Below, in pieces: positions 44,814 to 46,161 of a DNA stretch of 64,000 nt. Source of the stretch: Algoriphagus lutimaris (GTDB lineage Bacteria > Bacteroidota > Bacteroidia > Cytophagales > Cyclobacteriaceae); contig NZ_JAFIDJ010000002.1 in assembly GCF_017051705.1 (NCBI RefSeq), positions 62,001 to 126,000 on the forward strand, in the 5' to 3' direction. The notes below the pieces were generated by a model, which was not told the DNA's origin, did no database searches, and saw nothing but the letters and a program-made list of their open reading frames with translations. How positions within the stretch are numbered: position 1 is the stretch's first letter; each line of letters opens with the position of its first letter. Both the position numbers and the translations under genes were made by a program.

Positions 44814-45440
44814 GTGAATATCCCTTCCAAATTAATTGAAGATGCTGTCACAGAAATTTCCAGATTACCTGGAATAGGGAAAAAGACAGCTTTGCGATTG
44901 GCCCTGCATTTATTAAAACAAAATGAGGTTCATACTGAAGCCCTGACGCTCGCTTTAACTAGAATGAGGCAGGAAATTCAGTATTGTAAAAAATGTCACA
45001 ACATCGCTGACGCGGAAATCTGCCAGATTTGTGCGAGCATGCGTAGAGACAAAACAGTCATCTGTGTTGTAGAAGACATCAGGGATGTTTTAGCTATAGA
45101 AAACACCAATCAGTTTCAAGGAACATACCATGTATTAGGAGGAGTTATTTCTCCAATTCAAGGGATTGGTCCTGAAGAGTTGGCTATTGAATCCCTAATG
45201 GTTAGGGTTTCTTCATCCCAAGAAGAAGGTGAAGAACAGATCCAGGAAATCATTTTAGCTCTAAGTGCTACCATGGAAGGGGATACTACCTCCTTTTATT
45301 TGGCAAAAAGACTGAAACAAAAAGGAATTAAAGTAAGTACCATCGCAAGGGGAATCCCTGTAGGCGGGGAACTAGAATATACCGATGAGGTAACTTTGGG
45401 AAGAAGTATAATGACCAGAATTAATTACTCTACCGAGTAA
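44814..45440 (+). CDS. recR: Recombination mediator RecR
   Basis: 208 aa. The N-terminal helix-hairpin-helix is [20 protein letters not shown] (about 14-33). The four-Cys zinc finger is [16 protein letters not shown] (about 57-72). The Toprim domain has [20 protein letters not shown] and [18 protein letters not shown]. It works with RecF/RecO to load RecA at gaps. The start is GTG 44814 ([19 protein letters not shown]), which matches the usual N-terminus; no ATG fits. Confidence 0.95.
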
Positions 45441-45488: not shown

Positions 45489-45562
45489 GGGGGATTAGCT
45501 CAGTTGGCTAGAGCGCTACACTGGCAGTGTAGAGGCCACCGGTTCGAATCCGGTATTCTCCA
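45489..45562 (+). tRNA. tRNA-Ala (anticodon GGC)
   Basis: A 74-nt cloverleaf without an encoded CCA. Acceptor GGGGGAT pairs with ATTCTCC using G-T wobbles. The D-arm is GCTC/GAGC. The anticodon stem is CTACA/TGTAG with loop CTGGCAG. The T-arm is ACCGG-TTCGAAT-CCGGT and the discriminator is A (45562). Its 3' half is the seed of the tandem array that follows. Confidence 0.95.
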
Positions 45563-46161
45563 CATTAAAGCTTCACAGGAATGTGAGGCTTTTTTGTTTC
45601 AAATCCTTTTTATCAACACTATGCCACCGGTTCGTCCCGATAACTATCGCGGACCGGTATTCTCCACATTAAAGCTTCACAGGAATGTGAGGCTTTTTTG
45701 TTTCAAATCCTTTTTATCAACACTATGCCACCGGTTCGTTCCGATAACTATCGCGGACCGGTATTCTCCACATTAAAGCTTCACAGGAATGTGAGGCTTT
45801 TTTATTTCAAACCCTTTTTATCAACACTATGCCACCGGTTCGTCCCGATAACTATCGCGGACCGGTATTCTCCACATTAAAGCTTCACAGGAATGTGAGG
45901 CTTTTTTGTTTCAAACCCTTTTCATCAACACTATGCCACCGGTTCGTCCCGACAACTATCGCGGACCGGCATTCTCCACATTAAAGCTTCACAGGAATGT
46001 GAGGCTTTTTTGTTTCAAACCCTTTTCATCAACACTATGCCACCGGTTCGTCCCGATAACTATCGCGGACCGGTATTCTCCACATTAAAGCTTCACAGGA
46101 ATGTGAGGCTTTTTTATTTCAAACCCTTTTTATCAACACTATGCCACCGGTTCGTCCCGAT
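45535..46161 (+). repeat. 104-bp tandem array derived from tRNA-Ala 3' end plus terminator
   Basis: Starting inside tRNA-Ala, five full 104-bp units (starts 45623, 45727, 45831, 45935, 46039) and a truncated sixth (46143-46161) follow. Each unit contains, in order: GCCACCGG of the tRNA T-stem; a hairpin insertion replacing the T-loop (TTCGTCCCGATAACTATCG, then CGGA); CCGGTATTCTCCACATT of the tRNA 3' end; a copy of the tRNA terminator; and an AT-rich linker ending TATCAACACTAT. In each unit ACCGGTTCG and CGGACCGGT pair outside CGATA/TATCG, a 14-bp REP-like stem with a 3-nt bulge (45626-45658 and every 104 bp). Units differ by only a few bases, mostly transitions. In-frame ORFs of 60-90 codons across the array are repeat artefacts. 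Confidence 0.95.
45568..45595 (+). terminator. tRNA-Ala terminator, first of six tandem copies
   Basis: AAGCTTCACA and TGTGAGGCTT form a 10-bp stem (one G-T pair) closed by GGAA and followed by TTTT. The same hairpin recurs at exact 104-bp steps: starts 45672, 45776, 45880, 45984 and 46088. Confidence 0.9.

Follow-up and report, generated by a model that had tools for sequence, protein, structure and literature searches.

Hairpin-bearing tandem copies of a tRNA-Ala 3' end in Algoriphagus lutimaris and their probable kinship with tRNA-linked GIY-YIG nuclease elements

Attachment sites of tyrosine-integrase elements typically show direct repeats of a tRNA 3' end, and at the E. coli tyrT locus 178-bp tandem repeats (rtT) begin with a tRNA 3' end; we know of no nuclease relatives of these repeats. 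Palindromic hairpins are also known from REP and BIME elements, which are associated with RAYT transposases and have many dispersed genomic copies. The closest known system to the one described below is that of the free-standing GIY-YIG homing endonucleases of phages. SegB of T-even phages, a free-standing GIY-YIG endonuclease, cuts within tRNA genes with RAWTSGAAC as its preferred motif and has shown no isotype preference, while phage T6 needs SegB for tandem repeats composed of tRNA-Tyr and a shortened segB (PMC13096335). The covered sections of a GIY-YIG survey mention tRNA three times, none of them concerning tRNA genes as targets (PMC1564403), and among the papers listed by a search of the open-access literature (subscription papers being outside its scope), none described GIY-YIG elements that are linked to chromosomal tRNA genes and include pseudo-tRNAs.

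Here, we describe a tandem array behind a tRNA-Ala gene in a 64,000-nucleotide stretch of an A. lutimaris contig (the window), together with the nuclease elements that resemble it in other genomes. The interest rests with this element family rather than with the window array itself.

The array behind tRNA-Ala

The head of the array is an intact tRNA-Ala(GGC) gene on the forward strand (45489..45563; ARAGORN, Rfam tRNA 66.8 bits). Immediately 5' of it lies recR (44814..45440, forward strand; Pfam RecR domains), which served as the locus marker across relatives, and the neighbour on the other side of the array is an ORF without a Pfam match. Five full forward-strand units of 104 bp follow the tRNA (45564..45667, 45668..45771, 45772..45875, 45876..45979 and 45980..46083), succeeded by an incomplete sixth (46084..46161, same strand) that comprises a terminator, a linker and a 19-bp stub (46143-46161). 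An earlier, sequence-only reading of this DNA had described the same five units and stub, and both were recovered by Tandem Repeats Finder and by comparison of the units: 45550-46161 was returned with period 104, 5.9 copies, 97% matches and a score of 1161 (the remaining two rows within the window are 43 and 33 bp long), and the full units show 1-5 differences per 104 positions, or 95.2-99.0% identity.

Each unit, from the first onwards, opens with a terminator and a linker; the 5' and 3' halves of a T-arm follow, with a hairpin between them, and the acceptor 3' strand comes last. The hairpin occupies the place of AAT in the tRNA T-loop sequence TTCGAAT. The terminators (first at 45567..45592, others starting at 45671, 45775, 45879, 45983 and 46087, all on the forward strand) number six at 104-bp spacing, compared with a shuffle mean of 1.2 terminator-like sites, and the unit terminator folds with -17.5 kcal/mol (z -5.8). 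The pseudo-T-arm hairpins (first at 45626..45658, others starting at 45730, 45834, 45938 and 46042, again on the forward strand) number five, and the unit hairpin folds with -14.4 kcal/mol, compared with a shuffle mean of -8.3 (z -2.9). Both counts agree with those of the earlier reading. ARAGORN called no tRNA inside the array, Rfam at E up to 5 placed no family except tRNA above cut-off between 45000 and 46700 (RtT was not listed), and a promoter scan found nothing.

The label "REP-like", which the sequence-only reading had attached to the hairpins, did not hold. A 211-base array query against the 4.7-Mb own genome found only the array itself and one further match; judged by where it falls in the query, the latter is a similar terminator behind tRNA-Leu and not the palindrome. 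Since no dispersed copies of the array DNA turned up, we rejected the REP reading.

GIY-YIG nuclease elements at tRNA genes of relatives

In relatives, we found a larger element, built in order from an intact tRNA, a terminator, a leader, an ORF for a stand-alone GIY-YIG nuclease of about 75-105 aa, a pseudo-tRNA with a hairpin, a tRNA tail and, usually, a terminator, such that the ORF lies between the intact tRNA and the pseudo-tRNA. The pseudo-tRNA reproduces part of that tRNA, with a hairpin replacing or splitting its anticodon arm or T-arm. Its hosts are Ala, Leu, Met, Thr, Val, Asp and Lys tRNAs. A search with PF01541 gave matches, UvrC included, in 40/40 genus genomes, with 2 to 12 in each among the matches listed; the same domain also matches 12/14 control genomes, and its presence alone therefore means little.

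We fetched loci among the PF01541 matches listed and, after dropping nine ORFs shorter than 60 aa, retained 119 of 128 ORFs (two loci, L131 and L068, overlap). A complete tRNA lies within 250 nt upstream on the same strand in 54/119 of these, mostly at 29-71 nt, and at 250-1300 nt in 17 more, many of which are tandem copies; an opposite-strand tRNA within 500 nt was found for none of the 119. As a control, tRNAs were found in 0/20 UvrC loci of about 4.3 kb each, which contain the same domain. The 48/119 ORFs with no tRNA in range, many of which belong to a distinct clade of the protein tree, count against the element reading. Downstream, at least 20 nt of the same tRNA recur 3' of the ORF in 58 of the 71 linked cases, with a terminator-region match in 55 of these 58, and in 27/58 the stop codon of the ORF lies inside the pseudo-tRNA copy.

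Elements of the Ala, Asp and Val types, together with one Lys element, have the pseudo-tRNA hairpin in place of the anticodon arm; those of the Thr and Leu types, and some of the Val, Lys and Ala types, have it in the T-arm, and the Met type is less regular. Among 11 distinct Ala hairpins, the inner pairs were kept in 22/22 cases while their letters change, with 1 of 100000 shuffles as good; the source genomes are related, and the outer five pairs were fixed by the pattern search, so that only the inner pairs count as evidence.

PF01541 was found in 20/20 ORFs of relatives, and the GIY-YIG residues Y5, Y16, G18, R26 and E62 are invariant in 20 proteins drawn from all tRNA types. By sequence, the nearest solved structures are UPF0213 proteins and SLX1, with an intron endonuclease also among the sequence relatives; an NCBIfam group I intron endonuclease model matched 8/20 proteins (best 6.9e-7), and in PADLOC, PDC-S14 matched up to 7/20 (best 1.6e-5) and a homing endonuclease model 3. 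Across 16 Ala-type genes of 76 codons each, median pN was 0.17 and median pS 0.84 (the latter saturated), with pN below pS in 120/120 pairs; judging from these codon comparisons, the nuclease is under purifying selection.

Nucleases cluster by tRNA type: the protein tree required 24 tRNA-label changes, compared with 61.4 in shuffles, where labels derive from ORF starts and some rows are mislabelled "none" or Gly. Val rows and Lys rows each form one side of a branch. Rows labelled Met, Asp, Ala, Thr or Leu group together but are interspersed with unlabelled ones; motif-anchored distances, obtained later and not part of the tree, assign some of these to the same tRNA. A clade of 33 rows carries no tRNA label.

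The arrangement extends beyond the genus. A scan of named genomes with an Ala-type query confirmed 122 loci, of which 80 were kept. Among these, 57 are found no more than 250 nt past a tRNA and 6 follow one at a greater distance (63/80 linked, counting an ARAGORN Pro call, L182, and a Ser call, L242, that are pseudo-tRNAs by eye), and 17 have no upstream tRNA, 7 of them with less than 500 nt of upstream sequence. The linked loci include Belliella, Echinicola, Flavobacterium, Allomuricauda, Flagellimonas, Aquimarina, and Ignavibacteria and Neomarinimicrobiota MAGs. In a phylum sample, a mixed profile matched 97/148 genomes, and 21 of the 27 loci new to the analysis were tRNA-linked. The sequence-only reading had proposed looking for this arrangement elsewhere, and it proved to occur at many other tRNA genes (71/119, 63/80 and 21/27 loci linked in the three samples). 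As a separate observation, one contig of the phylum sample (G144:C34:6982-9766) holds eight consecutive GIY-YIG matches at about 365-bp spacing, one with an internal stop codon. Spread by phages or plasmids was considered and rejected: with one Ala protein as query, the phage records returned were 10, all from Rhizobium phages at 38% identity, and plasmids gave no match.

To place the window locus among these, we compared tRNA-Ala loci of the own genome and 57 relatives. A recR match was present in 52/55 compared Ala loci, in one of them (L202) on the far side. The locus search returned 30 genus loci from 36 genus genomes, own included: 10 hold a nuclease ORF, 7 a 3' pseudo-copy scored as ORF-less (the window included, as well as G005, which does hold an ORF missed by the scoring pattern), 5 a 5' match only, and 8 neither. 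Across the genus, the element is present in some genomes and absent from others at the same tRNA-Ala locus. Strict patterns applied to 70 genus genomes found the anticodon-arm swap in 11/70 and the T-loop insert in 5/70. Neither pattern matches the own genome, where an additional base stands in the hairpin, and this counts against the element reading of the window array.

The upstream side of tRNA-Ala is occupied in some genomes as well. ORF-less pseudo-tRNA units lie 5' of the gene in several Algoriphagus (L023, L024, L017 and L028), where they lack the 3' end and carry a hairpin instead of the anticodon arm; those of L023 and L024 are arranged in tandem. At L078/L020 (G022), a GIY-YIG gene lies on this side, between a broken 5' piece of tRNA-Ala and a whole tRNA-Ala.

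The window array as a probable ORF-less form of the element

ORF-less and nuclease units occur together in one array in seven cases (L226, L217, L018, L083, L028, L137 and L241), with unit lengths of about 90 to 150 bp. The hosts are Flavobacterium sp. UMI-01 (whose sequence contains masked letters), Allomuricauda profundi, Algoriphagus terrigena, three further genomes (G029, G005 and G009) and a Saprospiraceae MAG, in which the array adjoins tRNA-Lys. In G029 and G005 (L018 and L028), the T-loop insertion occurs at the same point as in the window array. On the strength of these mixed arrays and of the shared insertion point, we read the window array as an ORF-less form of the element, and call it a satellite rather than a member because its unit has no ORF of the family and no Ala-type nuclease was found in its genome. 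Its sequence organisation suggests that it is probably an orphaned, all-satellite version of a mobile-looking GIY-YIG element of tRNA 3' ends. The sequence-only reading had supposed a selfish palindromic element with tRNA 3' ends as homes; the home was well chosen, but the selfish part appears to be the GIY-YIG nuclease element of relatives, not the palindrome.

Several features count against this reading. No trace of a family nuclease ORF is visible in the window unit, so that its derivation by deletion from a nuclease unit is only putative. In Ala-type nuclease elements the hairpin usually resides in the anticodon arm, whereas the window array has it in the T-loop. The ORF-less units of G009 (L137; tRNA-Lys), three copies of 88 bp without terminators, are of a simpler build.

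Within the genus, the same kind of array stands at the same locus in G001, with the T-stem letters of that genome's own tRNA, until it is broken off by a contig end (L006), and this speaks against an isolated assembly fault. G034 has one unit at tRNA-Ala, and G018, in which recR is 94% and the downstream neighbour 90% alike, lacks an array; inspection by eye shows a decayed stub there.

Within the own genome, nucleases of the family lie behind Leu, Met and Thr tRNAs, one of them preceded by the tRNA-Leu terminator that the array query had matched. The Ala profile found in this genome only these Leu/Met/Thr-linked nucleases and one unlinked gene. Behind tRNA-Met (L067, G000:C1:1142600-1145300), two tandem GIY-YIG units are followed by a truncated third, and the pseudo-tRNAs there carry several hairpins. 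Elsewhere (L065 and L066), two GIY-YIG genes with no nearby tRNA lie amid a different repeat type, in which GTCATTGCGAG and GTCATTTCGA motifs were recognised by eye, another possible association of GIY-YIG genes with repeats. For the palindrome pattern TCCCGATN1-6ATCGNGA, 4 sites were counted in the own genome and 22-24 in G021 (reversed pattern 0-1), with no perfect palindrome of this form in the 64-kb window. Because only 2 of 16 inspected loci (L168 and L180) lie among tRNA genes and only one of them (L180) has a GIY-YIG gene, the palindrome was discarded as an exclusive mark of the element.

Among other explanations, an ordinary tandem duplication, in which a hairpin entered a duplicated tRNA tail and the copies expanded by slippage or unequal crossing-over with no nuclease involved, on the pattern of the E. 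coli tyrT/rtT 178-bp repeats, would account for the failure to find an Ala-type nuclease in the own genome and for the 95-99% unit identity, which is expected from recombination. We consider it unlikely, since relatives have units of similar design next to nuclease units, in part at this very locus, and hairpins recur at set places in several isotypes. Both points are compatible with growth of this particular array by slippage, and slippage after hairpin insertion is a possible growth route for the window array, which may itself be inert.

The fail-safe termination, enzyme titration and small RNAs raised by the sequence-only reading found no support in the analysis. A functional RNA device, in which stacked terminators or tRNA-like small RNAs provide insulation or titrate tRNA-processing enzymes, would fit the six terminators and stable hairpins, and the covariation of family hairpins fits selection on structure. 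However, the array is not conserved, with five units in the window, none in G018 and no pseudo-copy in 8/30 genus loci, and no Rfam family beyond tRNA reaches the cut-off, which makes such a device improbable. Improbable, too, is a toxin-antitoxin-like pair in the family, with the GIY-YIG protein attacking its cognate tRNA as RNA and the pseudo-tRNA acting as decoy RNA. The clustering of nucleases by tRNA type and the tRNA-like copies with another hairpin in place of the anticodon arm are what such a pair would produce, but GIY-YIG enzymes of known activity are, to our knowledge, DNA nucleases, by sequence the proteins are related to UPF0213, SLX1 and an intron endonuclease, and the window array has no protein. 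Finally, a row of attachment sites of a tyrosine-integrase element would explain direct repeats of a tRNA 3' end, yet is scarcely credible where no integrase occurs among nine neighbouring proteins (Pfam scan), a hairpin interrupts each would-be site and relatives carry nuclease elements instead.

A proposed mechanism and comparison with known systems

Genes for tRNAs are essential and highly conserved, and an element that dwells in them must therefore spare the host tRNA. The intact tRNA in front and the hairpin-disabled copy behind look like a solution to this problem. We tentatively outline what may be an undescribed class of chromosomal selfish elements in Bacteroidota and neighbouring phyla, each lineage specialised on one tRNA gene. 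The nuclease would read the tRNA gene as a folded DNA shape, cut it, and be rebuilt beside the restored tRNA; the hairpin-swapped pseudo-tRNA would serve as immunity mark and recombination arm, and ORF-less satellites such as the window array would spread at the expense of the element or serve host immunity.

In steps, each nuclease would cut its cognate tRNA gene, and repair would copy element DNA beside the restored tRNA. The hairpin of the pseudo-tRNA would remove the cut site and disable the copy as a tRNA. Recombination between identical tRNA tails would then expand and contract the array, at times without the ORF, with the nuclease driving array growth; in the window, only satellites would be left. 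Cutting, homing and nuclease-driven array growth are what we infer from the arrangement of these loci. One objection to the mechanism is that it should leave the intact tRNA next to each element open to cleavage.

The SegB motif is present in the T-loop of the window tRNA-Ala and absent from the array, a loss in keeping with a protective role of the inserted hairpin at this locus. The motif was rejected as a general mark of cut sites, occurring in 17/58 intact tRNAs and 12/58 pseudo-copies at linked loci, and the mechanism would therefore need other cut sites.

The element design is found in Algoriphagus and as far afield as Flavobacterium, Allomuricauda and Ignavibacteria MAGs. If the proposal is true, it would give a biological role to many small stand-alone GIY-YIG proteins, identify a source of variation in tRNA loci between strains, and yield a group of nucleases whose specificity for tRNA genes can be tested. 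It would also offer an explanation for odd tandem arrays that follow tRNA genes and would otherwise be taken for noise or assembly faults.

Compared with known systems, the window array shares with the E. coli tyrT 178-bp repeats and rtT RNA the tandem repeats that start with a tRNA 3' end, but has no Rfam RtT match. It shares with REP and BIME elements the palindromic hairpins outside protein genes; in contrast to these, the window unit is not dispersed, its hairpin sits inside a tRNA arm, and the linked enzyme is of the GIY-YIG type. UPF0213 and SLX1 are alike to the element nucleases as their nearest solved structures by sequence, while the latter differ from SLX1, a named structure-specific endonuclease, in being linked to tRNA genes. 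Closest is SegB of T4 and T6, an intron-less nuclease that is likewise small, of the GIY-YIG type and adjacent to tRNA genes (PMC13096335, PMC2988022), and in T6 tandem repeats of a tRNA and a shortened segB likewise occur, with SegB required (PMC13096335). Unlike SegB, the elements described here are chromosomal, in Bacteroidota and relatives, with putative homing and cutting; their nucleases cluster by tRNA type, whereas no isotype preference was seen for SegB (PMC13096335); and their unit includes a hairpin-carrying pseudo-tRNA and also occurs as ORF-less satellite arrays.
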